Virus record (IMG/VR): IMGVR_UViG_3300027805_000100
Span: 1-20,876 of that record
Reading direction: 5' to 3' (one strand)
DNA: 20,876 nt
Source: a virus
Shown: one piece after another, positions 1 through 17,809 of the stretch
How the letters are laid out: each line of letters opens with the position of its first letter
How positions within the stretch are numbered: position 1 is the stretch's first letter
The notes under the pieces: model-generated
The model's database searches: none
What the model was told of the DNA's origin: nothing
The model's input: only the letters and a program-made list of their open reading frames with translations
Program-made: the position numbers and the translations under genes

Positions 1-1090
1 GGAAGAGCACGTTCAGCGTGTTGACCCTGTCCTTGACAGGCGGATTTGCGTTGCCATGGACCGCTCTGAACCCGGCCTGCGTCAGTAGCGCGACGTCGCT
101 CTTCGTCGACGTGGAGCGAAGCGCCGTTCCGCTGGCGTCGACGAACGCCTGTAGCCGCATCTGGTACACGTCGTCTCGCGTGTAGTGCCTCCCTCTTGTG
201 CGGGTGAGGTACTGCGCGATCCACTGTGCCACTCGCTCAGCGTGTTCGTCCGTCGTCGTGCCGCCCTCTTTGATCACCTCGCCGACGACGTGTGTCGTGC
301 GTTGCGACTGGTCCGTCTCGACGACGATCCAATGCATGTAGCGCACGTTGAAGTCACATGCGATTTGGATGGTGCCCTTGACGACGACGGGCGACACGCA
401 ATGCACCCGCCGGTCGAAGCGGCCATAGACGCGCCCGCCCTTTGCCGTGCGGACGCCGTCGAGTTTCTCCGACGCCGTGCTGTCGTCCATGCGTTGACGC
501 ATCGATTCCACATACGTCGACGACAAGTAACTATTGGCCGACGACGTCACGCTCCATTGCCGCACATCGGGCGACGGCTTGGCGAGGATCATCTCATAGG
601 CCGGCCCGTAGCCTTCAGGGGTGCCTGTCAGCACGATTTGCTGACACGGCCCCATGCTGACACGGGCCATCGCCGTCGTCAGGGCCTCGACGTCGCAGAG
701 TTCCCATTCGTCGACGAGAAGCCCGCCAGCGGTGATGCCTTCAAGGGAGCGTGGTTCGTCGGCTGACCGACACAGGATCTCCACCTGCTTGCGCTTGCCG
801 ACGGTCAGGATCTTATCCGTCTTGTGCCAAGTGTACGGTAGCTTCCACGCATCGAGCATCCTCCGTGCGGTGGCCACAAACACATCGACGACCATGCGAT
901 AGGTGGGCTCGACGACGAGGATCGGGAAGCCACCGGAGCGGAAAGCCATGTCGACGACGGCAGCGACACCGGCCACGGTCTTGCCCGAGCGGTAGCCGCC
1001 CTGAAGCACGCGAATGCGCGACGTCCTGTCACCCACCAGCGCGAGCTGGTGAGGTAGCAAGGTCGCTTCGCCGCGCTGGATATTCAGCAC
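1..1090 (-). CDS. terL: Terminase large subunit, 3' part outside window
   Basis: Packaging motor ATPase/nuclease that cuts concatemeric phage DNA and pumps it into the procapsid. The reading frame is open from GTG 1090 to the window edge (363 codons), so the C-terminus is missing. Visible motifs are Walker A GGYRSGKT (residues 31-38), Walker B LLVDEWE (124-130, D127/E128), coupling motif TGTPEG (155-160), and the first RNase H-like nuclease aspartate in ACDFN (D246), followed further on by VDASG. The GTG start lies 6 nt after the upstream stop and has CAGGAA about 12 nt upstream. The Walker motifs plus the nuclease aspartate make the family assignment firm. It is the last gene in the window of a leftward unit; portal and other head genes would normally follow beyond position 1. 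Confidence 0.93.
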   Translation of the reverse strand, partial: MLNIQRGEATLLPHQLALVGDRTSRIRVLQGGYRSGKTVAGVAAVVDMAFRSGGFPILVVEPTYRMVVDVFVATARRMLDAWKLPYTWHKTDKILTVGKRKQVEILCRSADEPRSLEGITAGGLLVDEWELCDVEALTTAMARVSMGPCQQIVLTGTPEGYGPAYEMILAKPSPDVRQWSVTSSANSYLSSTYVESMRQRMDDSTASEKLDGVRTAKGGRVYGRFDRRVHCVSPVVVKGTIQIACDFNVRYMHWIVVETDQSQRTTHVVGEVIKEGGTTTDEHAERVAQWIAQYLTRTRGRHYTRDDVYQMRLQAFVDASGTALRSTSTKSDVALLTQAGFRAVHGNANPPVKDRVNTLNVLF

Positions 1091-1096
1091 GGTGCG

Positions 1097-1609
1097 CTAT
1101 TTCCTGTCGGCGGTTGTGACCACCGCAGGCACCCAATCCACCACATCGACCGTGTCCGGCGAGTCAGCGACGGTGCGTCCTGGCGGACCGTAGCGGGCGG
1201 GGTCGAGGGCCGCCAGCATGGCGAGGATGGCGGCGCGGTCGCCGTCGTCCGCTAGGGCTGCTAAGCGCTCCTCGAGTTCTTCGATTGACGGTCGCCGCCA
1301 GTTGGCCCCCATCGCCACCATGGTCCCGTTGTCGCGGTGCTCAGGCTCCCATCGTGCGTGAGGGGCCAAGGCGATGTCGAGGATCATCTTTGCCGCAGCG
1401 TTGCGATCCTTGCTGTCGGCCTCGACGACAGAGAGGCGCTCGGCGTCGGTGAGGTCCGGCACCACGTCGGGGTTGCCGACGGCTTTGGCGTACTGGACGC
1501 GCAAGATGTGGTCGGTCGCCGTGCGGAGCCAGCGAGAGAGAGGCAGGCGATCAGACGCCCGCCCGGAACCGGGACGGGGAGGGGACGGCATAGGCAAGCA
1601 TCTTGCCAT
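1097..1609 (-). CDS. Probable terminase small subunit or hypothetical protein
   Basis: I do not recognise a named family. The protein ends 6 nt before the large terminase start, and that position suggests the DNA-recognition (small) terminase subunit. It has a basic, proline-rich N-terminus, a central helical part (around RWLRTATDHILRVQYAKAV) and an acidic C-terminal half with a helix-forming EELEERLAALADDGDRAAIL stretch. The start is uncertain: ATG 1609 and ATG 1591 are both in frame and neither has a good Shine-Dalgarno. Starts further upstream are unlikely because an intrinsic terminator occupies 1618-1648. The function is inferred only from gene order; the reading frame itself is convincing. 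Confidence 0.6.
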   Translation of the reverse strand: MARCLPMPSPPRPGSGRASDRLPLSRWLRTATDHILRVQYAKAVGNPDVVPDLTDAERLSVVEADSKDRNAAAKMILDIALAPHARWEPEHRDNGTMVAMGANWRRPSIEELEERLAALADDGDRAAILAMLAALDPARYGPPGRTVADSPDTVDVVDWVPAVVTTADRK

Positions 1610-1616
1610 ATTGGCA
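1604..1616. promoter_or_regulatory. 13-bp palindrome over the small-terminase start
   Basis: TGCCA-TAT-TGGCA is a perfect inverted repeat whose centre is the ATG at 1609. It directly follows the T-tract of the 1618-1648 terminator. It could be an operator, a terminase recognition element or chance; nothing else in the window repeats it. Confidence 0.3.
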
Positions 1617-1617
1617 C

Positions 1618-1648
1618 AAAAAAACAAACCCCCGACACCATGCCGGGG
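1618..1648 (-). terminator. Intrinsic terminator immediately before the terminase genes
   Basis: On the minus strand an 8-bp stem (CCCCGGCA/TGTCGGGG, one G-U pair) with a 3-nt loop is followed by GGTTTG and seven T. The T-tract ends only 8 nt before the first possible start codon of the small-terminase gene, so it would block leftward transcription into the terminase operon unless it is read through. Confidence 0.8.
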
Positions 1649-1715
1649 ATCCGTCTGCCTTGTCAGGGCCCATCGTGGGCGTTGTGTAGCGCGTGGAGGC
1701 GATGGAGGCAACGAC

Positions 1716-1741
1716 AAAAAAAGAACCCCGGCGAACCGGGG
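1716..1741 (-). terminator. Intrinsic terminator of the 1757-1987 gene
   Basis: Reading leftward, CCCCGG-TTCG-CCGGGG (6-bp GC stem with a stable TTCG loop) is followed by TTC and seven T. It lies 15 nt after the stop codon of the 76-residue gene and is a textbook rho-independent terminator. Confidence 0.88.
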
Positions 1742-1756
1742 CGGGTGGGGGAGGGG

Positions 1757-1987
1757 TCAGAGCCAGCCACCGGGGCGGACCACTTCGACGGTCACCTTGC
1801 GTGGGAACTGGCCGGGCTGCTGCAGGGTCCACTCCTTGCCAACCTGATAGACGTAGGCGCCGTCACCGACATCGAAGCTGTGCGGCGCACAGCCGGGGCC
1901 AGAAGAGTAAGCACCAATCGTCGTCGTCTCGCGACCGTCGACGGTGATGATGCTGTGCGTGTAGGACTTCGCGGCGGTGGTGTTCAT
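1757..1987 (-). CDS. Small orphan protein in its own transcription unit (moron-like)
   Basis: 76 residues, not recognised. The sequence is rich in Thr, Val and Gly, with a likely beta-rich fold (SYTHSIITVDGRETTTIG, then AYVYQVGKEWTLQQPG, KVTVEVV). There is no signal peptide or membrane segment and a single Cys. ATG 1987 has no Shine-Dalgarno. Instead a TTGACA-N17-TAGAGT promoter ends 6 nt before the ATG, so the message is probably leaderless. A strong terminator follows 15 nt after the stop. Promoter, one gene and terminator together are the hallmark of a phage moron expressed independently of the lytic programme, possibly during lysogeny; that role is inference. Confidence 0.75.
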   Translation of the reverse strand: MNTTAAKSYTHSIITVDGRETTTIGAYSSGPGCAPHSFDVGDGAYVYQVGKEWTLQQPGQFPRKVTVEVVRPGGWL

Positions 1988-1993
1988 GCACCC

Positions 1994-2022
1994 ACTCTAC
2001 CCAACCGTCACGCATCTGTCAA
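1994..2022 (-). promoter_or_regulatory. Sigma-70/SigA-type promoter, leaderless
   Basis: The minus strand carries a perfect -35 TTGACA (2022-2017), a 17-nt spacer and -10 TAGAGT (1999-1994). Only GGGTGC separates the -10 from ATG 1987, so transcription should start at or next to the ATG. The -35 sits in GCTTGAC, also present in the promoters at 6356 and 9065. Confidence 0.8.
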
Positions 2023-2073
2023 GCATTCTGTGTGTGTGGCATCCCAAAGCCGGATCTAGACCACCGACAGATC

Positions 2074-2103
2074 AAAAACCAAACCCCGCCAGCGCAGGCG
2101 GGG
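2074..2103 (-). terminator. Intrinsic terminator in the intergenic region
   Basis: On the minus strand CCCCGCC-TGCGCT-GGCGGGG (7-bp GC stem) is followed by TTTGGTTTTT. It insulates the leaderless promoter at 1994-2022 from anything transcribed leftward out of 2104-2371. Confidence 0.82.
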
Positions 2104-2319
2104 TCCAGTCGCGATCCGGTGGGTGTCCGGTGCTCGCCAACCCGCCGAGAGACGGTAGCGGGGTGGCGTGGGGGGGAGGGTAGCACGGGCCAGTCGCCGG
2201 GGCAAGGGCGGAGGTGGAGCCCTTCTTGATGTATTGATCAGAGAGTAAAGAGATCTCCTAAGAAAACTCCTTATATATAGGGGCTTCCGTTGTTTTAGAT
2301 CCTTCTTTCCCAAAACGCA
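2104..2319. other. Non-coding stretch with AT-rich island; candidate origin or ncRNA locus
   Basis: No convincing gene was found here. About 2228-2319 is strikingly AT-rich for this genome and includes TATATATA (around 2272-2280), the palindrome GAGATCTC and, on the minus strand, two SD-like purine blocks (AAGGAG, TAGGAG) with no start codon suitably placed after them. The rest (2104-2227) is G-rich on the plus strand with two GGTAGC copies around 2155-2187. The stretch is bounded by a hairpin at 2320-2351 and a terminator at 2074-2103, and lies next to the primase gene. A TATATATAA box on the minus strand has no clear -35. Replication origin or a short leftward RNA are the two readings I consider. 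Confidence 0.35.
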
Positions 2320-2359
2320 GTAGCGGGTCCGACTTCCGCCGAACCCGCTACCCTTTTTT
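2320..2359. terminator. Hairpin terminator after the primase operon, possibly bidirectional
   Basis: Perfect 9-bp arms GTAGCGGGT (2320-2328) and ACCCGCTAC (2343-2351) with a 14-nt loop. The plus strand continues CCTTTTTT, a good T-tract. The minus strand continues TGCGTTTTGGG, which is weaker. It starts about 20 nt after the stop of the prim-pol gene, so the useful direction is most likely leftward, closing the helicase/primase operon. Confidence 0.65.
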
Positions 2360-2371
2360 CCCGCGTAAGTA

Positions 2372-4609
2372 TTATCCCTGTTGACGCAGCGCGTAAATCT
2401 CGCGTGGGCGTCCGCCCGTAGGCTCCTTTGCTACCACGATTGTCCCCTCTTCGGCAAGCCGGTCGACAATCTCGCCCACCAGACGCGCTGGGAGCGCCCT
2501 GCAGGCCCGCAGCAAGTCCGACCTACCCATGGACCCGCGCGAGGCCCGCAAAGCGCCTAGGACAAGCTCACATTGCGCCGCGTGGTCATCCCACGATGCC
2601 CGACGATTGGCCGCCAGACTCCCGGCAAAGACCCGCGCCGACTCCTCTGCCAGCGCGACCGCCACACGAGCGCAATCCTCCGTCACGACAGGCACGTCCG
2701 CTTCGGGTTGCGCCAGCGCGGCAAGGATCATCGCCAACCGGCCGGCAAACTCCGGCAGACGCGCCAGAACCGCCGGAGGCACATCCTGCCGAGTGCCATC
2801 GCGCCGTGCCTTGTCTGCGTCGATCTTGCACTTTGTCAACAGGCCACGCGCCGCGTCATCCTCTGGCATCGTGACCGAGTCATAGAGCCGAAGCTGATCC
2901 ACGCCGGTGTCGACCGTCACCGCAAGGGCCAGGTGCCATGCCTCATGACGCTCACGCACCGCCAGCACAGCCGAGCGGACGTCCAGCGGCAGATCGTCGT
3001 CGGGCCTCGTCTCTGGCGGTTGCCAGTCCGGCAGCACCCACTGTGAACGCATCCACACATGACGACCGACAAAGCCGTCTGCCACGTCGACCGACGTCAG
3101 GACACTGTGCAGGCTCTCCGGCGTTGTCGATCCAAGCACCGTTACGACAGGCGCAATCAAGTCGAGTTTGCCACCGCCCTTCACCAACGACACCGCTGGG
3201 GACCACTTGTCTGTGCCCTTCGTGGACAACTCCGTCAGAGACTGCTTGATGTCCTGCCGATGTGTCGCGGCCCTTGGACCCATCATGTTCCCGAGCTGCA
3301 TCCCATACTCGTCAAGCACAAGACACGTCGCCACGCCAGCACCGACAGCCTTCCTCACGCCGTCGACGAAGGCAGGCCCGCTGCTGAAGCTGTTGGGACC
3401 GCGCAATGCTGGCCAGCACTCGTCGATGACCCGCGACAGGCAGGACTGCGGACGGTTCTTGCCCTCACCCGACGACGCCATCGACACGACGTAGAGACTC
3501 GACGTCGACCGGCGGTACACAAGCCGACGGCCAGCCATCGCCGACCCGAGGGCCAGAAGCGCCGCGATGGTGAGTCCAGGTTGCGGATGATCGGCCCCAC
3601 GGATCACCCACCCACAGAACGTGTCGCACAAGCCGCCCAGCGCCCTGACATCGGCCAACATTGCCCAACGTGCGGCGTCCTGCTCGGCTGGCGTCGGCCC
3701 CTTGGGCTTGGCCCTCTCCGGTGCCATGATGATCTCCGGCTCAATCGCCAGCGCGTTGATCTCGTCGACGTAGTAGCCGCTGTCAGACTCCATAATCGCC
3801 TTGTCGACAGGGCTCCGAGGATGCGACGCGCCAGCCTTCAGGCCACGCTCAATCGTGCCCCTCGACTTGCGTTCGCTTTCTCCCTCCCAACCACGGGCCA
3901 CGCTGTAGAGCGCGTCCGCAGCTACGCCGAACGACAAGTGACCAGCGCCGCAAATCTGCCCGAGCTTGAATGCCGCACGAACCAGCGCATGGTTGCGCCC
4001 GCCCTTGCCTGTCCGCGCCACCTCGTCGACTTCCTGCCGCATCGCCGTCTCTGCCCACGACGTCGCAGTGAGCGCAAAAGTCTGGCGCGTGAGCGTGATC
4101 GCTTGCTGTCGTGGCCTCACCCTGTCCACGATCCACGACGGCAACGGCACCGGGTCTACGTCATTCGTCCAGGTGTATCCTTTGCCCTCCACCACCGACG
4201 GGAACGCCACGATGTAGCCGCCCTCGCCACGCGTGTCGGCATCGGGGCTGATAGCGTTAGGGCTTGACTTGGCTGTGTTGGGCAAGCGCACACCCTCCGG
4301 CAGCGCGTAGACGTAGTGCCATCCGCCGCCGCGTGTCCTTGCGATCCACGTTTCAGGCAGGCGCGGCATGATCTCCGACGACGCCGCGTCAATGTCGACG
4401 ACGTAGATGCCAGACACCGACCCCGTCGCAATCGCCACGTTGGCACCTGGCGTCTTCTCCCACCAAGACCGGATCGTAGCCTCGTCCGTCGTCGCGTCTT
4501 TGCACCCGGCAGACCCAGCAAAAGGGATCTTCGTGCCGGGGCTGCAAGGGAACACCGCAAGCCCGCGTTCTGCGTACCAAAGGGCAGCTTCAATATTGGT
4601 CATCACCAT
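2372..4609 (-). CDS. Bifunctional primase-polymerase with DUF3987-type helicase domain
   Basis: A 745-residue replication protein likely to make primers and unwind or load at the phage origin. The N-terminal prim-pol domain (about 1-165) shows the catalytic VDID pair (D72, D74), GGGWHYVY (94-101, H98) and DTRGEGGYIVAFPS (125-138), as in the bifunctional DNA primase/polymerase family. A PriCT-like helical part follows (about 185-265). A DUF3987-like ATPase region has a Walker A-like SSGEGKN (379-385) and Walker B CLVLDEYG (D433/E434). The last 70 residues look like a winged helix. ATG 4609 has GAGAGGA upstream and overlaps the helicase stop by 7 nt, implying coupled translation. The long open frame on the opposite strand is a composition shadow. 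Confidence 0.88.
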   Translation of the reverse strand: MVMTNIEAALWYAERGLAVFPCSPGTKIPFAGSAGCKDATTDEATIRSWWEKTPGANVAIATGSVSGIYVVDIDAASSEIMPRLPETWIARTRGGGWHYVYALPEGVRLPNTAKSSPNAISPDADTRGEGGYIVAFPSVVEGKGYTWTNDVDPVPLPSWIVDRVRPRQQAITLTRQTFALTATSWAETAMRQEVDEVARTGKGGRNHALVRAAFKLGQICGAGHLSFGVAADALYSVARGWEGESERKSRGTIERGLKAGASHPRSPVDKAIMESDSGYYVDEINALAIEPEIIMAPERAKPKGPTPAEQDAARWAMLADVRALGGLCDTFCGWVIRGADHPQPGLTIAALLALGSAMAGRRLVYRRSTSSLYVVSMASSGEGKNRPQSCLSRVIDECWPALRGPNSFSSGPAFVDGVRKAVGAGVATCLVLDEYGMQLGNMMGPRAATHRQDIKQSLTELSTKGTDKWSPAVSLVKGGGKLDLIAPVVTVLGSTTPESLHSVLTSVDVADGFVGRHVWMRSQWVLPDWQPPETRPDDDLPLDVRSAVLAVRERHEAWHLALAVTVDTGVDQLRLYDSVTMPEDDAARGLLTKCKIDADKARRDGTRQDVPPAVLARLPEFAGRLAMILAALAQPEADVPVVTEDCARVAVALAEESARVFAGSLAANRRASWDDHAAQCELVLGALRASRGSMGRSDLLRACRALPARLVGEIVDRLAEEGTIVVAKEPTGGRPREIYALRQQG

Positions 4610-6333
4610 GGCAGATCGTCCTCTCCAAAACTGTCGCCAGCGGCAGGTTGGGCCTCTGACTCGTTCTCAACCTCGTCATCAATCTCACGGCGCTTGCCAT
4701 GGTGGATGGCAACGACGCGGTCCCACTTGCCATCCTTCTCCGTCTCGACAGCCACAACCGGGCGCATGTGCCCGTCGTCGAGGAGGGCAAGGGCATCGTC
4801 GACGCTCTCTGGCAGGCGACAGCCAACGTGTTCCTCCCACCATCGCATCGCTTTGCGCCACGCAAAGCTGCCCTCTTCGTGCTCGACGCACACCCACTCA
4901 GACACGATCTTGCGCCCGAGCCCAAGCGGCCCACCTGGCGGGCAGTAGTCGATCCGAAGCGTCGGTGGCGCGTTGTCGTCGCCGGCCTTGTAGTGCTTGC
5001 GCCACTCGACAGCGCCGACCTCATGCCGCACGGGCGGTGCCTTGGGCTTGATCTCGAGGGACAGCGCCGGCAGGTTGCTCGCCTTGTCGTTCGCCTTGCG
5101 CTCTGGCGCGGGCCACTCGTAGCCACAGTGAAGGCAGACCCGCACCGCCGGTGCTTGCTGCGCAAGACACTGTGGACACGTCTTTGTGGGCGCGTCGCCG
5201 TCGCTCTTCTTTCCCTTGGGCTTCACCTTGACGTCGTCGATGGGGCCATGCCTTGCGATGTTCCCACCGTAGTCCAAAAGCAGGCAATCGGTCTTTCCGT
5301 CGGCCAGTCTCATCCCGCGCCCCACCATTTGGACGTAGAGAGAAGGGCTCATGGTCGGCCTGACCAATGCCAGCACGTCGACGACAGGCGCATCAAAGCC
5401 AGTCGTCAGGACGTCGCAGGACGCGAGACACGCAAGCTGCCGCGACTTGAATCGCCCGATGATCTCGTCCCGCTGGCCGCGCTCCGTCTCGCCGGTGATT
5501 ACGTCGCAGGACACGCCACGGATTTGCATCTCGTTTCGCAGACGCTTTGCATGGGCCACCGACGTGCCGAAGATCATGGCCGACGTGCGCCCGCCATCGA
5601 GCGCACCCTTGACGTCGTCGGCGACGATGCCGTTGATCTTGTCGACGTCGCAAGCCATCTCCAAATCCTTCGCCGCAAACTCACCCATGCGGATGCCGAC
5701 GTCGGATAGGTCTATCTGCTCTCGGACGTACCCCGTCACGACAGGCGATAGCCAACCGTCGCGAATGAGGCGCTTCACGTCGACGTCGTAGGCGACGGCG
5801 GTAAAAAGCGCACTGTCCCCTTCCGTCAAGTAGCCCTGCCCGAGACGGTACGGCGTCGCCGTGTACCCGAGTATCCGCAGGTCAGGGTTGACTGCTCGTA
5901 GGTCGGAGATCACGCGCTGGTATGACGTCGTGTCTTCAGGGCTTAGGAGATGCGCCTCGTCAATGATCACGACGTCGACATGCCCGAGCCTTGACGTCGA
6001 CCGCACGATGGACTGGACACCGCAGATCGTGATCTGCTCGATCTCCTTTCGTCCAAGCCCGGCGCTGTAGATCCCGACCGGGGCCATCGGCCAGATCGAC
6101 CGCACCGCCTTCGCATCCTGGACGATGAGTTCCGCCCGATGCGTCGCAATGACGACGCGGCACCCGAAATCCTGCACAAGCCGCCGCGTCGTCTCTCCGA
6201 GCGTCGGGCTCTTGCCGCTTCCCGTCGGCATCACCACAAGGGGGCTTGCTGGCTTCTCTGGCGTCGACGGTGCCCGCTCCCAGTACGAAAACACCGCGTC
6301 GACTGCCTCTTTCTGGTAGTCCCGTAACTTCAT
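4603..6333 (-). CDS. SF2 DEAD/DEAH-type helicase with zinc ribbon
   Basis: A 576-residue ATP-dependent helicase probably acting in phage replication. RecA-like domain 1 carries the Q-motif-like LRDYQ (3-7), Walker A MPTGSGKS (35-42), DEAH (125-128) and TAT (158-160). Domain 2 carries TGFDAP (311-316) and the arginine-finger motif QMVGRGMR (335-342). A C4 zinc ribbon follows (C386, C389, C400, C403), then a C-terminal domain with LRIDYCPP...EWVCVEHEEG...WWEEH, a pattern I associate with phage SF2 helicases. ATG 6333 is chosen over upstream in-frame starts because AAAGGAG lies 11 nt before it and the upstream codons run through the divergent promoter. It is transcribed leftward with the primase. 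Confidence 0.88.
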   Translation of the reverse strand: MKLRDYQKEAVDAVFSYWERAPSTPEKPASPLVVMPTGSGKSPTLGETTRRLVQDFGCRVVIATHRAELIVQDAKAVRSIWPMAPVGIYSAGLGRKEIEQITICGVQSIVRSTSRLGHVDVVIIDEAHLLSPEDTTSYQRVISDLRAVNPDLRILGYTATPYRLGQGYLTEGDSALFTAVAYDVDVKRLIRDGWLSPVVTGYVREQIDLSDVGIRMGEFAAKDLEMACDVDKINGIVADDVKGALDGGRTSAMIFGTSVAHAKRLRNEMQIRGVSCDVITGETERGQRDEIIGRFKSRQLACLASCDVLTTGFDAPVVDVLALVRPTMSPSLYVQMVGRGMRLADGKTDCLLLDYGGNIARHGPIDDVKVKPKGKKSDGDAPTKTCPQCLAQQAPAVRVCLHCGYEWPAPERKANDKASNLPALSLEIKPKAPPVRHEVGAVEWRKHYKAGDDNAPPTLRIDYCPPGGPLGLGRKIVSEWVCVEHEEGSFAWRKAMRWWEEHVGCRLPESVDDALALLDDGHMRPVVAVETEKDGKWDRVVAIHHGKRREIDDEVENESEAQPAAGDSFGEDDLPW

Positions 6334-6349
6334 GATCTGTGTTGCTCCT

Positions 6350-6396
6350 TTGTGCTTGACACGTTCTATCGGCCCCCGATAGAAGTCAAGGCACAA
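6350..6396. promoter_or_regulatory. Large inverted repeat in the divergent promoter region (operator)
   Basis: A nested inverted repeat fills the gap between the two divergent replication operons. Outer arms TTGTGC (6350-6355) and GCACAA (6391-6396) enclose TTGAC/GTCAA, and the inner arms TTCTATCGG (6364-6372) and CCGATAGAA (6376-6384) have a 3-nt centre. The inner arm overlaps the -10 of the rightward promoter, so a dimeric repressor bound here would shut that promoter and probably the leftward one. The HTH protein at 7707 is a possible ligand; this is inference. Confidence 0.7.
6356..6385 (+). promoter_or_regulatory. Rightward early promoter
   Basis: -35 TTGACA (6356-6361), 18-nt spacer, -10 TAGAAG (6380-6385); transcription would start near 6391 and give a short leader with the GAGGAGA ribosome site of the AAA gene. 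Leftward, the mirror copy TTGACT (6389-6384) sits only 15 nt from TAGAAC (6368-6363), so the leftward promoter is weaker or uses another -10. Confidence 0.7.
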
Positions 6397-6407
6397 GAGG
6401 AGAACAC

Positions 6408-7130
6408 ATGCAGATCATGAAGCTCGCGCAAGCCATCCGGCCTCATGCGCCAAAGGTTCTTGTCTACGGTGACAGTGGCATCGGCAAGACGACGCTTATC
6501 GGCAGCCTTCCGGGCCGCGTCCTGATTGTGTCCGCAGAGTCGGGCCTGCTCTCGCTCTCGTTCGCGTCGGGCGATGACCGCTTTGACGTCGTCGAGATTG
6601 TCACCGTCGATGACCTGATCAACGTCCACAAGCATCTTACCGGCAAGTCGCACGGCTACGATTGGGTCGCGCTGGACAGCATTTCGGAGATTGCCGAGGT
6701 GGTCCTCACCGCAGAAAAAAAGAAGGTCACGGACCCGCGTCAGGCATACGGTGCCGTTATCGAGCGCGTCACCGCCGCGATGCGGGCCTTCCGTGATCTG
6801 CCGATTGGCGTCTATTTCTCGGCCAAGTTGGCCAAGGTGAAGGACGACGCCACGGGCCGGATCTCCTACGGGATCTCGATGCCCGGCGCAAAGCTTGGCG
6901 ACGCCGTCCCGTACCTCTTTGACGAGGTGTTCCGTCTCGTGTGTGTCGACGAAGTCGACCCCGACGGAAAGCGCGTGCCCGTGCGCTACCTCCAGACATC
7001 CGGCGATGCGCGAAGCATCGCCAAAGACCGCAGCGGGGCGCTTGACCCGCTCGAACCTGCTGACCTCGGCGCCGTGGTGGCGAAGATGGCGGCTCACGCT
7101 GGCGCGGCAGTCTCCGCGACGAAGGAGTGA
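6408..7130 (+). CDS. AAA_24/Sak4-like RecA-fold ATPase
   Basis: A 240-residue RecA-like ATPase of the type phages use in single-strand annealing or recombination (AAA_24; Sak4-like). Walker A GDSGIGKT (21-28) and Walker B WVALDS (D90) are clear, and the length fits the family. ATG 6408 has GAGGAGA 5-6 nt upstream. It is the first gene of the rightward operon and is followed at once by a DUF669 SSB-like gene, the partner commonly found with such ATPases. The exact role (annealing, helicase loading) is not shown by the sequence. Confidence 0.82.
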   Translation: MQIMKLAQAIRPHAPKVLVYGDSGIGKTTLIGSLPGRVLIVSAESGLLSLSFASGDDRFDVVEIVTVDDLINVHKHLTGKSHGYDWVALDSISEIAEVVLTAEKKKVTDPRQAYGAVIERVTAAMRAFRDLPIGVYFSAKLAKVKDDATGRISYGISMPGAKLGDAVPYLFDEVFRLVCVDEVDPDGKRVPVRYLQTSGDARSIAKDRSGALDPLEPADLGAVVAKMAAHAGAAVSATKE

Positions 7131-7135
7131 TGACC

Positions 7136-7654
7136 ATGTCCGACTGGATGAACGACAACGACCCCCTCGCCCTTGATTTCGACGTCGCCAGCGTCGAGCG
7201 CCGCCCGTCGAGCTTCGATCCGCTGCCTGCCGGTGACTACCCTGTCACCGTCAGCAAAATCGAGGCGAAGAAGACCCGCGACGAGCAAAGCGTCCAAGCC
7301 AATGTGGAACTCACCGTCGACGACGGCGATCACAGGGGCCGGAAGATCTGGACGCGCATTACGCTGCGCACCATCCGCACTGACGAGAAGGGCCAGCAAA
7401 TGCTGGACATTGGCAAGCGCCAATCTGCCGAGCTTGCCGATGCTTGCGGCGTCACCGGCATGAGCCTGTCACCGTGCGTCGGTGCGCAGATCGTGGTCAA
7501 GCTGAAGGTGCGCCCTGCCGCCAACGGCTACGACGCCAGCAACGACGTAGTCGCATTCAAGGCCCGCGCTGGCGCTGCGCCGGTCGCCGTCGCCAGCAAG
7601 CCCGCCGCGTCGGCTCCGACGAGCAAGCCCGGATTTATGGCCCGCAAGGGATGA
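7136..7654 (+). CDS. DUF669 family protein, likely ssDNA-binding
   Basis: 172 residues with the DUF669 pattern: an N-terminal acidic segment, LPAGDYPVTVSKIEAKKT (about 30-47), NVELTVDDGDHRGRKIWTRI (about 58-77), then a beta-rich part and a disordered Ala/Pro/Ser-rich tail ending KPGFMARKG. DUF669 proteins are usually encoded beside AAA_24 ATPases and are considered SSB-like. GTG 7127, ATG 7130 and ATG 7136 are all in frame; ATG 7136 is chosen because it alone leaves a normal 8-nt spacing after GAAGGAG (7121-7127). Confidence 0.8.
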   Translation: MSDWMNDNDPLALDFDVASVERRPSSFDPLPAGDYPVTVSKIEAKKTRDEQSVQANVELTVDDGDHRGRKIWTRITLRTIRTDEKGQQMLDIGKRQSAELADACGVTGMSLSPCVGAQIVVKLKVRPAANGYDASNDVVAFKARAGAAPVAVASKPAASAPTSKPGFMARKG

Positions 7655-7663
7655 CACCCATCG

Positions 7664-7698
7664 CCCCGCACGGATCACCGTGCGGGGCTTTGCTTTGG
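7664..7698 (+). terminator. Intrinsic terminator after the DUF669 gene
   Basis: CCCCGCACGG (7664-7673), loop ATCA, CCGTGCGGGG (7678-7687) form a perfect 10-bp stem followed by CTTTGCTTTGG. It ends the two-gene recombination unit. The next gene's ribosome site TTTGGAG overlaps the T-rich tail, so downstream expression needs readthrough or an unseen promoter. Confidence 0.8.
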
Positions 7699-7706
7699 AG
7701 ATTCAC

Positions 7707-7958
7707 ATGGCCCGCACCTGGTACGACCGAAAAAACGGAGCCCGCACGATGCTTGATGGCACCCGCCTACGCGCTCTCCGTGAGAGCATGGGCATGAGCC
7801 TGCCCGACGTGGCCCGTGAAACGCGCTGTAGCGTCGCCAGTTTGTCAGTATGGGAGAACGAGGGTGCTTGCCCGTCGACGGAGTCTATCGCCGCGCTGCG
7901 GGCATTCTACGGTGATGCTTTGGAAGCATCGGGCGCTCTCACGGTGTCCGATGCCTGA
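7707..7958 (+). CDS. XRE-family helix-turn-helix regulator
   Basis: A small (83-residue) DNA-binding protein. The HTH_3 pattern is clear: LRALRESMGMSLPDVARETR followed by CSVASLSVWENEG and a closing helix IAALRAFYGDAL. There is no C-terminal peptidase, so it is a stand-alone Cro/CI-like or transcription-modulating protein. Two starts each have a ribosome site: ATG 7707 (TTTGGAG, 6-nt spacing) and ATG 7749 (AACGGAG, 8-nt spacing); the latter removes only a non-conserved basic N-terminus. It sits just after a strong terminator, and its stop overlaps the next gene. It is a candidate binder of the inverted repeat at 6350-6396. Confidence 0.78.
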   Translation: MARTWYDRKNGARTMLDGTRLRALRESMGMSLPDVARETRCSVASLSVWENEGACPSTESIAALRAFYGDALEASGALTVSDA

Positions 7959-8313
7959 CCCCATCGTTCTCAGTGCCCCTTTGCGCGTCGACGCATGGAC
8001 CAACGTGCGCGGCCACTGGCGGACGACGCAGAAGCGCAAGGACCGCGAAAAGCAAACGACATCGTGGCTCCTGCGTTCTCGTGTGCTGCCGGACCTTCCT
8101 GTCGTCGTGACCTTCACGCGCATTTCACCGCGTGACCTCGACGACGACAACCTTCCGTCGGCTTTCAAGTACGTCCGCGACGAGATAGCGCGGCACTACG
8201 GAACGCACGACGGAACCACCGCGCCGATCACATGGCGCTACCAGCAACGCCGTGCGCGTGTCGACGAGACGGCGCGTTACGGATTCACGATTGAGATTGG
8301 GAGCGCAGAGTGA
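7951..8313 (+). CDS. rusA: RusA-like Holliday junction resolvase
   Basis: 120 residues. The family signature is the acidic motif DLDDDN (62-67) followed by the SAFKYVRDEI helix (K73, D77), where RusA proteins place metal-binding aspartates. The N-terminal APLRVDAWTNVRGHWR segment is also typical. The enzyme would cut four-way junctions, resolving replication and recombination intermediates before packaging. ATG 7951 overlaps the end of the HTH gene (ATGCCTGA), which argues for coupled translation. The wider open frame starting at 7816 covers the HTH gene and is not used. Confidence 0.75.
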   Translation: MPDPIVLSAPLRVDAWTNVRGHWRTTQKRKDREKQTTSWLLRSRVLPDLPVVVTFTRISPRDLDDDNLPSAFKYVRDEIARHYGTHDGTTAPITWRYQQRRARVDETARYGFTIEIGSAE

Positions 8314-9008
8314 TCATCTACATCGACACCGAAACCGGCCCGAGCACCCGCCCCGACGTCGTGGCCCACATCGCAGGGAAACACTACGATCCAAGCGACC
8401 TCGACAGGGCCGCCAAAGATGCGGCGAAGGCTCTTGAGAAGACCAGCCTATCGGGCACCTTCGGCGAGCTGTGGGTGATCTCCGTCGCCACCGACGGCGA
8501 CGAGCCGATCACCTACGTCCGCGACGGGACCGACCCAGACGGCGAAGGGGCGATGCTGCGCCGGTTTGCTGAAGACGTGATCGACCTCGACAAAGACGTG
8601 TCTTTTTCCCGCCACCTCGACGCCATCGTGGCTCACGGCGCCGACTTCGACCGCCACATGATCCGCCAGCGCTGCACGGCGCACGGTGTCTATCTGCCCG
8701 CCGCAATCGCAGGATGCAGCCCAGACGGCACGTCGATGGCCCCGTGGGATCGAGCCAATCGATGGCGATGCACCATGGCGCTATGGACAGGCGACACCCG
8801 AGGCCGCGTCAGCCTGGGAGATCTCGCGCTGGCCCTTGCGGTCGATGCGCCCGTCAAAGGCGCAGACGGGATCGACGGATCACAGGTCTGGCCCCTGATC
8901 TGTGCTGGCCAGATCGGCCGGGTGGCGTCCTACTGCGCCGATGACGTGCGACGGGTGCGGGCGATCTACCAGCGGATCATGTCCGCCCGTCGGCCTGATC
9001 TGATCTGA
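8310..9008 (+). CDS. DnaQ-like 3'-5' exonuclease
   Basis: 232 residues. The DEDD exonuclease motifs are visible: ExoI YIDTETG (D6, E8), ExoII AHGADFDRHMI (about 109-119) and ExoIII SYCADDVRRVRAIY near the C-terminus, the spacing of a PolB-like 3'-5' exonuclease without a polymerase domain. Proofreading or single-strand end trimming is likely. The GTG start overlaps the RusA stop as GTGA, with GGGAG upstream. The C-terminal codons lie in a CTGAT tandem repeat that includes the stop codon. Confidence 0.8.
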   Translation: MIIYIDTETGPSTRPDVVAHIAGKHYDPSDLDRAAKDAAKALEKTSLSGTFGELWVISVATDGDEPITYVRDGTDPDGEGAMLRRFAEDVIDLDKDVSFSRHLDAIVAHGADFDRHMIRQRCTAHGVYLPAAIAGCSPDGTSMAPWDRANRWRCTMALWTGDTRGRVSLGDLALALAVDAPVKGADGIDGSQVWPLICAGQIGRVASYCADDVRRVRAIYQRIMSARRPDLI

Positions 9009-9019
9009 TCTGCTCTGAT
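8995..9019 (+). repeat. CTGAT short tandem repeat across a stop codon
   Basis: Five 5-mers, CTGAT x3, CTGCT, CTGAT. The exonuclease stop (TGA 9006-9008) is inside the array. Because the unit is 5 nt, gain or loss of one unit would shift the frame and change the C-terminus. Confidence 0.85.
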
Positions 9020-9022
9020 CCA

Positions 9023-9038
9023 CCGCATCACAATGCGG
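9023..9038. other. Small hairpin without T-tract
   Basis: CCGCAT-CACA-ATGCGG lies between the exonuclease stop and the 9065 promoter. No T-run follows on either strand, so termination is not supported. Confidence 0.4.
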
Positions 9039-9064
9039 CCACGGCACAATCAACACACAAGTGC

Positions 9065-9093
9065 TTGACGCTTGTGACGATGGTGTGTAGGCT
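9065..9093 (+). promoter_or_regulatory. Promoter of the accessory operon
   Basis: -35 TTGACG (9065-9070), 17-nt spacer, -10 TAGGCT (9088-9093). The -35 lies in GTGCTTGAC, the same nonamer as in the 6356 promoter, and within a CACAAG...CTTGTG inverted repeat (about 9056-9076) that could be an operator. A leader of about 45 nt would follow. Confidence 0.72.
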
Positions 9094-9141
9094 GTGGATG
9101 TGGCCGGCAGGGGTGCCGGGCACGAAACAGGAGAGACACAC

Positions 9142-9342
9142 ATGACCGACAGCTACATTCCCCCCGGCGCTGATCACTACTGGGGCGCTGACCTCGACCT
9201 CCCCGACACCCGCGATGAGCCGCCGGAGGACGACCACCAGATCAGCGACGAGAAGGCAGAGGCATGGGCCGCTGAAATGGGCGAGGAGCGCGACATCGAG
9301 GACGTGCTCGCCGAGCTTGCTGAAATCTACGGGGTGATGTGA
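9142..9342 (+). CDS. Small acidic protein, first gene of the accessory operon
   Basis: 66 residues, not recognised, strongly acidic (long Asp/Glu runs such as DEPPEDD and EMGEERDIEDVLAELAEI), predicted mostly helical at the C-terminus. ATG 9142 is preceded by AGGAGAG at 6-7 nt; this start excludes the upstream frame, which runs into the promoter. It is expressed directly from the 9065 promoter. Small acidic early phage proteins sometimes mimic DNA or bind host factors, but nothing specific supports that here. Confidence 0.7.
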   Translation: MTDSYIPPGADHYWGADLDLPDTRDEPPEDDHQISDEKAEAWAAEMGEERDIEDVLAELAEIYGVM

Positions 9343-9431
9343 TGTGCCGCACCATGCGCAAAGCCCTTGTGGCCGAAGCCAAGCGCCGTCGTCTGCCCGT
9401 GTGGGCGTTTCTGCTGCTGATCAATCACTGA
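9342..9431 (+). CDS. Possible 29-residue basic peptide
   Basis: An ATG overlapping the previous stop (TGATG) opens a 29-codon frame, MCRTMRKALVAEAKRRRL... ending in a hydrophobic WAFLLLINH. The basic helix and hydrophobic tail could make it membrane-associated. Support comes from the overlap and the otherwise unexplained gap before 9453; there is no homology evidence. Confidence 0.4.
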   Translation: MCRTMRKALVAEAKRRRLPVWAFLLLINH

Positions 9432-9452
9432 ATGGGAAAAGGGAGAGACACA

Positions 9453-10199
9453 ATGCTGACAATCACGACCGAAAAAATCACGCCGTCAATCGCTACTGCC
9501 TACCTTGAAAGCAACACCCGCAATCGACCGATCAAGCGCAAGCATGTCATCACGCTGGCAGACGCAATGGCCCGAGGTGAGTGGCGCACGACGCACGAAG
9601 GGATTGCGTTCGACTCAAACGGCGACCTCATCGATGGCCAACACCGGCTCTGCGCCGTCGTCATGAGCGGCGCGACCGTGTATATGGCCGTTGCCCGTGG
9701 GTGCGACCCGGATTCGTTTGCCGTCATCGGCGACGGTGCCCGCCGGTCCTCTGGCGACGTCCTGCACCTTGCAGGCGAAATCAACGCAAAAAAGCTGGGG
9801 TCGGCTGTTTTTGCGGCGATTCTCGGCACCGAAACTCGCACCGCAAGCAAGGCCGAAATCGCCGCATGGATGCGCGGCACCCATGCGCAAATCACCCGCG
9901 ACATTGTCTCTGCAATGCGAGACGAACACGCCGCCGTCACAGGCGCGATAATCCGGTCTGTCGTTGCAGGTGTTTTCAGTCACGCCCAGGCAATTGACTT
10001 TGCGAGGCGATATCAGTCCGGCGATTGGGACGGAGCCACGTCGCCAATTTGTGCGCTGAAGGCGCGAATCACGAAACACAAGCACACTCGAGTCGAGCAA
10101 TACCTCTATGCGGTGCGAGCGATCACGATGTACGCCGAAGGAAAACGTGCGCCAAAAATCTATCGCGCCACCTGTGATTTCGAGGTTCCCAATGCGTGA
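9453..10199 (+). CDS. ParB/Srx-fold-like phage protein with DGQHRL motif
   Basis: 248 residues. The motif LIDGQHRLCAVV (about 59-70) and the later FAVIGDGARRSSGDVL match a family of phage proteins related to the ParB/sulfiredoxin fold, where the GxHR core binds nucleotide or DNA. The remainder is helical, with an LKARITKHKHTRVEQYLYAVRAI segment near the end. The biochemical role (nuclease, CTP-dependent switch or other) cannot be told from the sequence. ATG 9453 has GGGAGAG 5 nt upstream; the alternative upstream in-frame start lacks one. Confidence 0.68.
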   Translation: MLTITTEKITPSIATAYLESNTRNRPIKRKHVITLADAMARGEWRTTHEGIAFDSNGDLIDGQHRLCAVVMSGATVYMAVARGCDPDSFAVIGDGARRSSGDVLHLAGEINAKKLGSAVFAAILGTETRTASKAEIAAWMRGTHAQITRDIVSAMRDEHAAVTGAIIRSVVAGVFSHAQAIDFARRYQSGDWDGATSPICALKARITKHKHTRVEQYLYAVRAITMYAEGKRAPKIYRATCDFEVPNA

Positions 10200-10395
10200 C
10201 CCAGACCGCCACTTGCCAGACCCCGGCATCGACGACAGCCCCACCGACGCCGAGCTCGCCAGCGCCGCCGACGGCGTCGACGTGACCCGATGGGTGGCAG
10301 ACCTCGTCGACACCGGCGAGGACAGCGCGGCTCTGCTCCGATGGGCACAGGACTGCTACCGAGAGATCATGGATGCGGTGGAGCGTGGCCGATGA
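10192..10395 (+). CDS. Small acidic hypothetical protein
   Basis: 67 residues, not recognised: a Pro/Asp-rich N-terminus, then two helices with Trp anchors (VTRWVADLVD and ALLRWAQDCYREIMDAVERG). ATG 10192 overlaps the preceding stop (ATGCGTGA) with GAGG upstream. It is an ordinary accessory-operon gene of unknown function. Confidence 0.65.
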   Translation: MRDPDRHLPDPGIDDSPTDAELASAADGVDVTRWVADLVDTGEDSAALLRWAQDCYREIMDAVERGR

Positions 10396-10549
10396 GTCGC
10401 CACATGCATGGGCGTCTCGCCCTCGCATTCTGGTACGGGCGCTGTGCTGCGTCCGTCATCGGCCCACTGTAATCATCGGCGACGACCACAACAGCGACAC
10501 CGTCGAGATCATCCGCGACGCGACGCAACGATTGAAGGAGACAGCATGA
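10385..10549 (+). CDS. Small hypothetical protein, GTG start
   Basis: 54 residues starting at GTG 10385, overlapping the previous gene by 11 nt. The C-terminal half PTVIIGDDHNSDTVEIIRDA looks like folded protein, and the stop (TGA 10547-10549) overlaps the next ATG as ATGA, the coupling used throughout this operon. The competing 26-codon frame at 10392-10472 starts with ATGA but ends 74 nt before the next gene. I prefer the 54-residue product. The ribosome site is poor. Confidence 0.5.
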   Translation: MADESPHAWASRPRILVRALCCVRHRPTVIIGDDHNSDTVEIIRDATQRLKETA

Positions 10550-10716
10550 AGAAACCCCCCCGAATCGCCTTGAACATCGATCTGAAGCCCGCTGAACGGC
10601 AGGCCCTCGACGCAGCAGCCGCCGCCGTCATCGACGAGCGTGGTCGACCCATGCGCGTGTCTACTTGGGCGCGTCGTGTGCTGATTGAAGCGGCGAAGGC
10701 CACGGAGAACACATGA
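10546..10716 (+). CDS. Ribbon-helix-helix-like small protein
   Basis: 56 residues: a beta-strand-like start (RIALNIDLK) followed by two helices (PAERQALDAAAAAVIDE and STWARRVLIEAAKA). That arrangement resembles Arc/MetJ/CopG dimeric DNA-binding proteins, although the match is only structural in outline. ATG 10546 has GAAGGAG at 5 nt. It may regulate its own operon. Confidence 0.6.
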   Translation: MKKPPRIALNIDLKPAERQALDAAAAAVIDERGRPMRVSTWARRVLIEAAKATENT

Positions 10717-10739
10717 GCAAGCACACACCGGGACCGTGG
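10713..10739 (+). repeat. 27-bp direct repeat (partner 11386-11412)
   Basis: The first 27 bases of the two HTPGPW genes are identical, covering the start codon and the SKHTPGPW codons. Unequal recombination here would delete the gene between them. Confidence 0.9.
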
Positions 10740-11000
10740 ACGGCCCGAGAACCCAACGGCCCCGGCATAGGGTGGCGTGTTGGCCCGGCATGGCTGGGAG
10801 AGAAACCATGGTCAGACGAGACAAGTGCCAACGCCCACCTCATCGCCGCCGCGCCCGATCTGCTGGAGATGCTCGAAAAGTGCGTCGCTGCGCTTGAGGC
10901 GGTGGACCGCACCTACGCCTCCGCAGCTTCCTCGGAGGTGAGGCGAAAAGTGCTGGACGAAGCCTGCACCGTCGTCACCAAGGCGAAGGGGGAGGGCTGA
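10713..11000 (+). CDS. HTPGPW-type phage protein, copy 1
   Basis: 95 residues of a family widespread in phages: N-terminal SKHTPGPW, central ANAHLIAAAPDLLEMLE and a helical C-terminus. The function is unknown in general; the conserved AAAPDLL segment is the family hallmark. ATGA overlap with the upstream gene. It shares two long identical DNA blocks with the copy at 11386, so these are recent duplicates. Confidence 0.78.
   Translation: MSKHTPGPWTAREPNGPGIGWRVGPAWLGEKPWSDETSANAHLIAAAPDLLEMLEKCVAALEAVDRTYASAASSEVRRKVLDEACTVVTKAKGEG
10830..10866 (+). repeat. 37-bp direct repeat (partner 11509-11545)
   Basis: A second identical block in the same two paralogues, encoding NAHLIAAAPDLL. The middle paralogue at 11000 carries a diverged version near 11200-11240. 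Confidence 0.9.
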
Positions 11001-11389
11001 TGCACTCCATCCCCTTCCGCCAACTCGGCATCGACGTCGACGGCGACTGTCACGGCACAGAAGGCCCATGGGTTTTTGACGCCAGAAGGATGATCGTGAC
11101 CTCGACGCTACCACGCACGGGCATGCGACCAGCCGGCGACCCCTTCCCGACGGTCTGCCGCCTGCCTGCCTCCTACACGCCGCAGGTCGTCGACGGCTAC
11201 CTGCTGGCTGCCGCCCCCGATCTGCTGGAGGCCCTTGAGGATATGCTGGGGCACTGTCAGGGCTGCAACGGCAAGGGGCGCTGCTATGGCCCCGTCCCCG
11301 GCTCTCCGGGGTCATATGCAAGCAACCAACCATGCGGCGACTGCGCGGATGCTCGCGCAGCCATCGCGAAAGCAAGGGGGAGCCAATGA
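11000..11389 (+). CDS. HTPGPW-family relative with zinc-finger-like insert
   Basis: 129 residues. It keeps the family core GYLLAAAPDLLEALEDML (about 66-83) but has lost the HTPGPW start and carries a cysteine cluster C-x2-C-x5-C...C-x2-C (CQGCNGKGRC, then CGDC), reminiscent of DnaJ-type zinc binding. ATG 11000 overlaps the upstream stop (TGATG). It stands between two near-identical relatives, so it is an older, diverged duplicate. Function unknown. Confidence 0.7.
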   Translation: MHSIPFRQLGIDVDGDCHGTEGPWVFDARRMIVTSTLPRTGMRPAGDPFPTVCRLPASYTPQVVDGYLLAAAPDLLEALEDMLGHCQGCNGKGRCYGPVPGSPGSYASNQPCGDCADARAAIAKARGSQ

Positions 11390-11688
11390 GCAAGCACACA
11401 CCGGGACCGTGGTTCTACGCAGAATCTGAAGTAGGCACTCCGTTCGTCGACTCCGAATCTGTTGGCGATTTGTCCGCCGTCGCGCTGCCGCTTGACGAGC
11501 AGAAAGCAAACGCCCACCTCATCGCCGCCGCGCCCGATCTGCTGGCGGCGCTGGAAGATCTGCTTCCTGACTTGCAGTGCTGGTGCGACGTCGCGTTCAC
11601 GGCTCGAGGAAAGCATCAGCCGAACACGCTCTGTCACCACGAGGAAAACGTGAAGGCCGCCATCGCCAAAGCGAAAGGCCAGTCATGA
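11386..11688 (+). CDS. HTPGPW-type phage protein, copy 3
   Basis: 100 residues: SKHTPGPW start, ANAHLIAAAPDLLAALEDLL core, then a Cys/His-rich stretch (CWCDVAF, LCHHEE) and a helical tail ending AAIAKAKGQS. ATG 11386 follows GGGGGAG. The DNA shared with copy 1 covers both conserved protein segments, while the variable middles differ, the pattern expected from duplication followed by diversification of the linker. Confidence 0.78.
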   Translation: MSKHTPGPWFYAESEVGTPFVDSESVGDLSAVALPLDEQKANAHLIAAAPDLLAALEDLLPDLQCWCDVAFTARGKHQPNTLCHHEENVKAAIAKAKGQS

Positions 11689-11840
11689 TCGCCCGCATCC
11701 TTGCCATCTTTGGCGTCCGTGTCGTCGACCTCGACATGGTGCATGTGCCCCTCGACAAGTGGCACGAGATCATTGGCGAACGTGATCGCCTGCGTCTTGA
11801 GGTGGAGCGCCTGCGGTCGCTTGTAAGAGGTGGAGTGTGA
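11685..11840 (+). CDS. Small helical protein with hydrophobic N-terminus
   Basis: 51 residues, not recognised. The N-terminus IARILAIFGVRVVDLDMV is hydrophobic with one Arg and is more likely amphipathic than transmembrane. The C-terminus ERDRLRLEVERLRSLVRG is a short coiled coil. ATGA overlap with the upstream gene; its stop overlaps possible starts of the helicase gene. Confidence 0.6.
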   Translation: MIARILAIFGVRVVDLDMVHVPLDKWHEIIGERDRLRLEVERLRSLVRGGV

Positions 11841-11845
11841 TGACC

Positions 11846-13222: not shown

Positions 13223-14112
13223 ACATCATCGACCAGAACGTGACCGACAATTTCGCAGCCTACCATGGCGACTGCATCGACGTATTGCGAGGGATGCCAG
13301 ACGAGAGCGTGCATTATAGCATCTTCTCCCCGCCGTTTGCGTCGCTCTACACATATAGCGCCAGTCCCCGCGACATGGGCAACTGCGCCAGCCACGATGA
13401 GTTCTTTGAGCAGTTCCGGTACCTCGTGCCCGAGCTTTACCGCGTCATGAAGCCCGGTCGCCTGCTGTCATTCCACTGCATGCTACTGCCGACGTCTAAG
13501 GCTCGCGACGGCGTCATCGGGCTGACGGACTTCCGGGGTCAACTCATTCGTGCGTTCCAAGAAGTCGGCTGGGTGTTCCATTCTGAAGTGGTCATCTGGA
13601 AGGACCCTGTCACGGCGATGCAGCGCACGAAGGCGCTTGGCCTGCTTCACAAGCAGATCAAGAAAGACAGCGCCATGTCGCGTCAGGGTATCCCCGACTA
13701 CCTTGTCACGATGCGCAAACCCGGCGTAAATCCCGAGCCTGTGACACACACTGGCAAGGACGACGACATGCCCGTCGGGATGTGGCAGCAGTTTGCGTCG
13801 CCGGTGTGGATGGACATCGACCAGGGCGACACGCTCCAGTATCGCAGCGCCCGCGAGAACGACGACGAGAAGCACATCTGCCCGCTTCAACTTGAGGTCA
13901 TCCGACGAGGCATCAAGCTGTGGTCAAATCCCGGAGACACGGTGCTGTCGCCGTTTATGGGTATCGGCAGCGAGGGTTACGTCGCACTTGAGATGGGTCG
14001 TCGGTTTGTCGGCGCTGAATTGAAGCGCAGCTATTTCGATCAAGCTTGCCGAAATCTTTCGTCTGTCGCACACGGCAGTGAACGGCAACCAGCGCTATTT
14101 GGAATTGTTTGA
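13219..14112 (+). CDS. Beta-class N6-adenine/N4-cytosine DNA methyltransferase
   Basis: 297 residues. Catalytic motif IV SPPF (37-40) precedes the SAM-binding motif I FMGIGSEG (246-253), the beta-class order. The segment after motif IV (SLYTYS, RDMGN) and the IWKDPV, SRQGIPDYLVTMRK stretch match phage methyltransferases found next to SNF2-type helicases. SPPF is compatible with either m4C or m6A. No restriction endonuclease is beside it, so it most likely masks phage DNA from host restriction or serves regulation with the helicase. ATG 13219 overlaps the helicase stop and has AAGGAGAG at 4-5 nt. Confidence 0.87.
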   Translation: MNIIDQNVTDNFAAYHGDCIDVLRGMPDESVHYSIFSPPFASLYTYSASPRDMGNCASHDEFFEQFRYLVPELYRVMKPGRLLSFHCMLLPTSKARDGVIGLTDFRGQLIRAFQEVGWVFHSEVVIWKDPVTAMQRTKALGLLHKQIKKDSAMSRQGIPDYLVTMRKPGVNPEPVTHTGKDDDMPVGMWQQFASPVWMDIDQGDTLQYRSARENDDEKHICPLQLEVIRRGIKLWSNPGDTVLSPFMGIGSEGYVALEMGRRFVGAELKRSYFDQACRNLSSVAHGSERQPALFGIV

Positions 14113-14124
14113 AGGGAGCACGAC

Positions 14125-14706: not shown

Positions 14707-14840
14707 TTGCCATGCTGTTCGTTATCGTCGTCGTCAGCGTAGCTGTCGGCCTTGTCTACCTCGCCGACGTATGGGAAGCGCGGGAACGCGCCCGCCGTCG
14801 TCATGAGGCCCTGCAATCCTTCTATGGACGTGAGTCATGA
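14703..14840 (+). CDS. Single-pass membrane microprotein
   Basis: 45 residues: the N-terminal hydrophobic segment AMLFVIVVVSVAVGLVYLA (about 3-21) is a clear transmembrane helix, followed by a positively charged cytoplasmic tail (EARERARRRHEALQS). ATGA overlaps at both ends place it firmly in the operon. The topology rule predicts the N-terminus outside. The sequence is compatible with a membrane-acting superinfection-exclusion or lysis-timing protein; function unknown. Confidence 0.65.
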   Translation: MIAMLFVIVVVSVAVGLVYLADVWEARERARRRHEALQSFYGRES

Positions 14841-17797: not shown

Positions 17798-17809
17798 GGG
17801 CCTCCTAGA

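Follow-up and report, generated by a model that had tools for sequence, protein, structure and literature searches.

Introduction

How a small gene without recognisable relatives comes to lie between the replication and the packaging genes of a virus, and whether it forms there a transcription unit of its own, is the question raised by this locus. The window, meaning the whole stretch of DNA analysed, is a 20,876-base virus record of IMG/VR, on whose minus strand the order is helicase, primase-polymerase, terminator T1, the unit, terminators T2 and T3, a terS-like gene and terL. Relatives were retrieved through the primase (18 loci) and through terL (14 loci), all of them being metagenome contigs. 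When genome contigs were searched by primase alignment no relative appeared, and the terminase alignment against them gave two contigs (L079 and L080) of one Myxococcales MAG, with a terL identity of 59-60%. Since the promoter module described below was not found in that MAG, Myxococcales were not adopted as the host.

Anatomy of the unit

The features of the unit and its surroundings are as follows:

4603-6396, minus strand: helicase gene
2372-4609, minus strand: primase-polymerase gene
2077-2110, minus strand: stem of terminator T1, upstream of the unit (-25.1 kcal/mol, z -5.3)
2017-2022, minus strand: -35 element TTGACA, with an invariant GC just before it (promoter scan and module alignment)
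1994-1999, minus strand: -10 element TAGAGT (promoter scan and module alignment)
1757-1987, minus strand: 76-codon orphan ORF, with a predicted leaderless ATG at 1987 and a stop ending at 1757
1725-1742, minus strand: terminator T2, with a 7-bp stem, a TTCG loop and a T run (-13.7 kcal/mol, z -2.25)
1622-1656, minus strand: terminator T3, before terS

On this strand TTGACA and TAGAGT are separated by a spacer of 17 nt, and a further 6 nt lead to the ATG at 1987. The sequence-only reading had placed these elements, the 76-residue gene and the TTCG-loop terminator in just these positions, and it had rightly located the unit between the replication and packaging modules, where it sits between the primase and terminase genes. 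The 6-nt distance fits a leaderless start, at which a host sigma70-type RNA polymerase would begin at or beside the A of the ATG, so that a leaderless mRNA encoding one 76-residue protein would be made. T2 would end this transcript, and T1 would block read-through out of the replication operon. Leaderless mRNAs are frequent in some bacteria, accounting for about 14% of mycobacterial genes in the part of PMC7148126 drawn on here.

A scan for sigma70-like promoters over positions 1-20000 (the last 876 bases lying outside it) gave 1 site, against 2.8 +/- 1.6 in shuffles, and the consensus match is therefore not significant by itself.

An exact insertion with empty and exchanged alleles

Comparison of the window with contigs empty at this site delimited the unit to the base:

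1715-2072, minus strand: 358-bp insertion relative to the empty sites
2073-2078, minus strand: left TTTTTG direct repeat, in the T1 tail
1715-1720, minus strand: right TTTTTG direct repeat, in the T2 tail

Once 1715-2072 is removed, the joined flanks match the empty sites of L021 (660/691), L025 (666/692) and L054 (663/691), that is, at 95.5-96.2%. L002 is also empty, but the joined flanks match it at 505/715 only, because its terS is a 53% variant and the right flank differs accordingly. The T1-tail stretch shared with L005 is longer, GGGGTTCTTTTTTTG. A direct-repeat finder run on 1600-2130 reported nothing of length at least 12, the TTTTTG repeats being shorter.

The T1 flank is present in 12 contigs, the window and 11 others, among which four are empty (L002, L021, L025 and L054), six are filled with four different alleles, and two (L004 and L060) are cut by contig ends. 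The filled alleles are those of the window, of L005 (59 residues), of L003 (a 47-residue ORF and more) and of L061, L062 and L063 (a 73-residue ORF and another one). The window and L005 have the promoter in common through about the fourth codon, after which the genes are completely different; a promoter can therefore stay while the gene behind it changes after a few codons. The sequence-only reading had proposed comparing related phages for replacement of just this unit, and in the relatives it is indeed replaced or absent as a whole. The same reading had the gene insulated by terminators on both sides. T1, T2 and T3 are all there, but T1 and T3 also occur in the empty alleles, from which T2 is missing, so that the outer two belong to the neighbouring genes and T2 alone travels with the cassette. 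The cassettes of L061-L063 have no T2, so some cassettes may run on towards terS.

Taken together, the exact empty and filled alleles point to terminator tails as joints in phage gene exchange, at base resolution. Recombination between short repeats in these tails would let whole cassettes come and go, and at other times the module would be kept while the gene is exchanged. The sequences fit gain as well as loss of cassettes, and the empty state may be ancestral or derived.

Exchange in this region also concerns the neighbours. The terS gene (1097-1717) was exchanged independently of terL, since L002 and L003 have a terS 53-55% identical to that of the window and a terL 97% identical, and the terS variants part company just past T3. 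On the other side, a non-coding block before T1 (about 2080-2200; GCTACCGTCTCTCGGCGGG and its neighbours) is common to phages with different replication modules (L021, L025 and L061), and might serve as a site of packaging or as a joint for recombination.

A promoter module shared by unrelated genes

Alignment of 19 sequences from this and other sites gave a box GATCCGGC, followed by W-T-T, about 4 bases and A-N-G-C, and then GC-TTGAC(A/G), 16-17 nt and TAGA(A/G/C)T. In short, the module consists of a dyad-like box, GCTTGACA, 16 or 17 nt and TAGA(A/G/C)T. Two models were built, R1 from sequence only and, as a leave-site-out version, R2 from 14 modules at other sites. The copies in the window are:

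1989-2059, minus strand: module M2 (box and promoter of the unit), 49.8 bits with R1, the window being in its training set, and 24.8 bits with R2 (E 1.7e-6 over 131 kb)
2037-2056, minus strand: upstream box GATCCGGCTTTGGGATGCCA of M2, an imperfect dyad of the short-spacing class, its centre 24 bp above the -35 element
9015-9094, plus strand: module M1, the second copy, with box CCGCATCACAATGCGG (9023-9038), TTGACG (9065-9070) and TAGGCT (9088-9093); 27.4 bits with R2 (E 2.6e-7)
9142-9342, plus strand: small gene after M1, with a Shine-Dalgarno leader; in some relatives other genes are inserted before it

R1 found 51 matches in 38 sources, training sequences included; 19 of the 20 whole records had matches, and most records contain one to two strong copies. 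R2 also detected the corresponding module copies in seven given relatives, and had no match at E up to 10 in 19 control sources. It is this comparison with relatives that makes the promoter of M2 significant, the consensus alone being at chance level. As judged from the alignment and the models, the module of which the predicted promoter is a copy also stands before many other small genes, unrelated to one another, a fact that the sequence-only reading had missed. A literature search, made without sequence patterns and with most subscription journals outside it, found no description of the module.

These results also bear on a simpler explanation, in which promoter and terminators are accidental or unused and the gene is transcribed as part of the replication or the late operon. 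The chance level of the consensus scan speaks for it, as does the fact that antitermination is common in phages and could join the unit to its neighbours. Nevertheless, the leave-site-out match, the conservation of module and spacing, and three terminators in series are hard to reconcile with it, and we consider it highly improbable. The unit is, in our judgement, quite likely a moron-like cassette, a separate set of promoter, gene and terminator whose promoter is a copy of a reused phage module.

Other scans defined the limits of the family. A promoter-plus-ATG pattern scan of viral contigs returned 21 stretches, with the module in three of this group (L026, L046 and L052); the other 18, mostly AT-rich and in many cases bearing one 421-residue gene, were set aside as being of a different kind and later became part of the controls. 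A box-promoter scan in which the gap from box to promoter was left free from 22 to 42 returned 23 stretches, and L069, L075, L077 and L078 (gaps 27, 23, 25 and 35) were put down to chance, having no box-like sequence after GATCCGGC and no R2 match. A leaderless-promoter scan yielded only two contigs, both already known, and a flank-length scan added little. As a separate observation, the ATG of the 421-residue gene in the AT-rich contigs L034-L036, L038-L044, L047, L051 and L053 is immediately preceded by TTGACA-17-TAGAAT-GGGTGC, or GGGCGC, another strong and leaderless-looking promoter, and L037 and L045 have a leaderless-looking promoter and a 74-residue gene, with another promoter and ATG immediately behind it.

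Box spacing and the possible regulator

The box was positioned in each module where it matched best among 51 positions. Its centre then lies 24/25 or 35/36 bp above the -35 element in all 23 modules less than 90% identical to each other (6 and 17 modules, respectively), and at a threshold of 70% all 13 modules fall in the same two classes (4 and 9). Part of these modules came from the box-promoter scan, in which any gap from 22 to 42 had been allowed. Owing to their common ancestry, the modules do not count as independent events. Between the two classes there is a difference of 11 bp, or one turn of the helix. Even at the same site both occur, the window, L003 and L061 being short-spaced and L004 and L005 long-spaced. 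Relative to the predicted start, this geometry puts the box centre at about -57 or -68, positions which we take to be comparable with class I activator sites. Dyad symmetry is good in some copies, CCGCATCACAATGCGG of M1, whose place is conserved in relatives, being the best dyad of all, and poor in others, that of M2 included. A DNA-binding protein would probably occupy the box, always on the same face of the helix, and these phages would reuse the module as a whole, box first and then GCTTGACA-16/17-TAGAnT.

One candidate for this protein is encoded by the phage itself:

7749-7958, plus strand: HTH_3-type (Cro/CI-type) protein, weak candidate regulator of the module

As an addition to the preferred explanation, this protein might bind the module and repress or activate M1 and M2. 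An HTH_3 match was found in 11 of 12 records, 10 of them above the cut-off, and the twelfth, G004, may be a contig that ends short of the place where the gene would be expected. However, L025 and L028 have different HTH proteins and yet a box of the same type, which makes it at least as likely that the box-binding protein is a host factor; the phage protein was therefore judged a weak candidate, and its role as regulator is doubtful. As an observation apart, GATC is dense in the 85 bp upstream of the boxes, where 23 modules have on average 3.39 copies and the loci would predict 0.59; such GATC-dense stretches in the window are, for example, 2023-2130 (minus strand) and 8985-9030 (plus strand).

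Genes behind the modules

Among 29 distinct modules listed, 27 head a readable gene, and these 27 genes form 20 families (blastp at 1e-3, our grouping). The ATG follows the -10 element by 6-7 nt in six cases (the window, L005, L026, L066 and two in L068, one of the last two also having a Shine-Dalgarno start), and most of the other module genes have a leader with a Shine-Dalgarno site. This includes the gene after M1, so that, as a correction to the sequence-only reading, the other module copy in the window precedes a leadered and not a leaderless gene. One family has a leaderless module copy before it in L068 and a leadered one in L061 (53% identity), and another recurs in L016, L028 and L070. 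At M1, L003 and L062 have an extra gene (331 and 249 bp more, respectively) between the leader and the first M1 gene of the window, with GAGAGACACCATG repeated on both sides of it. At both sites, therefore, the control region is kept and the gene is exchanged, M1 and M2 behaving as sockets. The cassette genes that were scanned gave no match to any family with a known function.

The 76-residue protein

The orphan status given to the gene from the sequence alone has withstood the searches made: the protein could be assigned to no family of Pfam, PHROG, NCBIfam or PADLOC, and searches for relatives gave nothing credible in phages (best E 0.6), in plasmids, in viral contigs (a search reaching close relatives only) or among the sequences of the PDB (best E 0.82). 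The AlphaFold2 model, computed from the single sequence, is all-beta and poor (mean pLDDT 63), and Foldseek of this model against the PDB gave nothing at E 0.001; no function was drawn from the structure.

A short, insulated unit with a strong terminator, whose protein has no relatives, might be suspected of producing a small regulatory RNA, with an incidental ORF. Nevertheless, the codon use of the ORF is coding-like, at 0.303 bits per codon, a value reached by 0.7% of 280 false-frame pieces, while about 70% of 56 true-frame pieces exceed it and 30% are at or below it. The ORFs of other cassettes at the site are coding-like too (0.55 in L005, 0.48 in L003 and 0.58 in L061), the ATG is placed where the transcript should begin, and an Rfam search, counting against the small RNA as well, had no match; tRNAs were also looked for, and none was found. 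Such an RNA as the active product thus has very little probability, and a translated cassette remains our preferred reading.

Comparison with known systems

A first term of comparison is the moron of lambdoid phages, reportedly described by Juhala and Hendrix in 2000. The unit resembles it in being a single extra ORF that separates two genes found side by side in relatives and that brings a promoter and a terminator with it, here predicted from sequence; for the definition, the parts available of PMC1524935 and PMC6814406 were followed. Foreign G+C has been described for lambdoid morons (same part of PMC1524935), whereas the cassette (0.634) has that of the phage (0.636), at the 45th percentile of windows of that length. 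Judged by sequence, then, the insertion and the putative signals of a moron are present and the foreign base composition is not. Moreover, unlike in the lambdoid case, nothing points to lysogeny, the promoter is that of a module repeated in these phages, and the insertion joints are terminator tails.

A second comparison is with the extended start-associated sequences (ESAS) of cluster K mycobacteriophages (PMC3203893 and PMC11373665, both in part); according to the latter, small genes of phage Adephagia are preceded by an ESAS promoter that contains an inverted repeat. As far as these extracts go, the likeness consists of a repeated, intergenic SigA-like promoter with an inverted repeat before small genes of different families, the repeat being here imperfect in several copies, that of M2 included. 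The present module differs in the position of its box, upstream of the -35 element and at either of two distances that differ by 11 bp, in the leaderless start of several of its copies, and in the exchange of genes behind a promoter that stays in place. The SAS is missing as well: GGGATAGGAGCCC, which in cluster K stands just before the start codon, had 0 exact matches in 81 loci, and with 2 mismatches allowed gave a single match in the window, whose position (16026) is distant from both modules; this is at chance level.

The PeSL cassettes of T4-type phages, seen through the passage of PMC4503421 that cites them, are promoter/stem-loop combinations at gene-shuffling joints, an arrangement that the neighbouring T1 and M2 may fit. 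Compared with that passage, the differences are small unrelated phages, a joint formed by a terminator tail or a Shine-Dalgarno repeat, and a sigma70-type promoter with an upstream box. Finally, in archaeal viruses a conserved regulatory sequence stands ahead of anti-defence genes (PMC11065993, in part). In both systems, to judge from that excerpt, one strongly conserved promoter region precedes many unrelated small genes (here 20 families behind 27 modules); the promoter here, in contrast, is of the bacterial sigma70 type, with one to two strong copies in most records, and the likeness is one of promoter pattern.

Lysogeny and possible function

Lysogenic conversion or superinfection exclusion had been put forward for the unit in the sequence-only reading, which would make it a moron expressed from a prophage. 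A promoter and terminator of its own, as in the classic morons of the available parts of PMC1524935 and PMC6814406, and the presence of a Cro/CI-type HTH protein agree with this. However, no tyrosine integrase (PF00589) and no serine recombinase (PF00239) were found in 12 records (five of 34-40 kb, the records being possibly incomplete), which makes prophage expression less likely, and the primase has no relative in genome contigs. Lysogenic conversion is thus left unsupported and we consider the prophage reading unlikely, though a plasmid-like lysogeny is conceivable.

For the moron-like cassette that we prefer, analogy with the archaeal-virus anti-defence promoters and with the ESAS of Adephagia tentatively suggests, as the most probable role of the 76-residue protein, that of an early accessory aimed at the host or its defences. 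A wider and somewhat more speculative proposal is that one regulated, helically phased module serves as a plug-in socket, using terminator-tail or Shine-Dalgarno repeats and working with or without a leader, and that the genes behind it might form a coordinated early anti-host or anti-defence arsenal under one box-binding factor. For most phage accessory genes no relative can be recognised, and sequence therefore gives no clue to their function; the module, if the proposal is true, would mark the places where they plug in and would be a search key for the accessory genes of an uncultured phage group. There is a precedent, the conserved regulatory sequence of archaeal viruses having served as a search key for anti-defence genes, according to the same part of PMC11065993.

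Other observations in the window

Three further features of the window were recorded:

16642-17490, minus strand: patatin-like phospholipase gene (PF01734, E 1.6e-12), among structural and lysis genes
13159-14112, plus strand: DNA methyltransferase-like gene, with NCBIfam adenine-specific matches well below the cut-offs
10713-11688, plus strand: tandem small genes of the ORF list with similar motifs (SKHTPGPW, ANAHLIAAAPDLL), apparently paralogues
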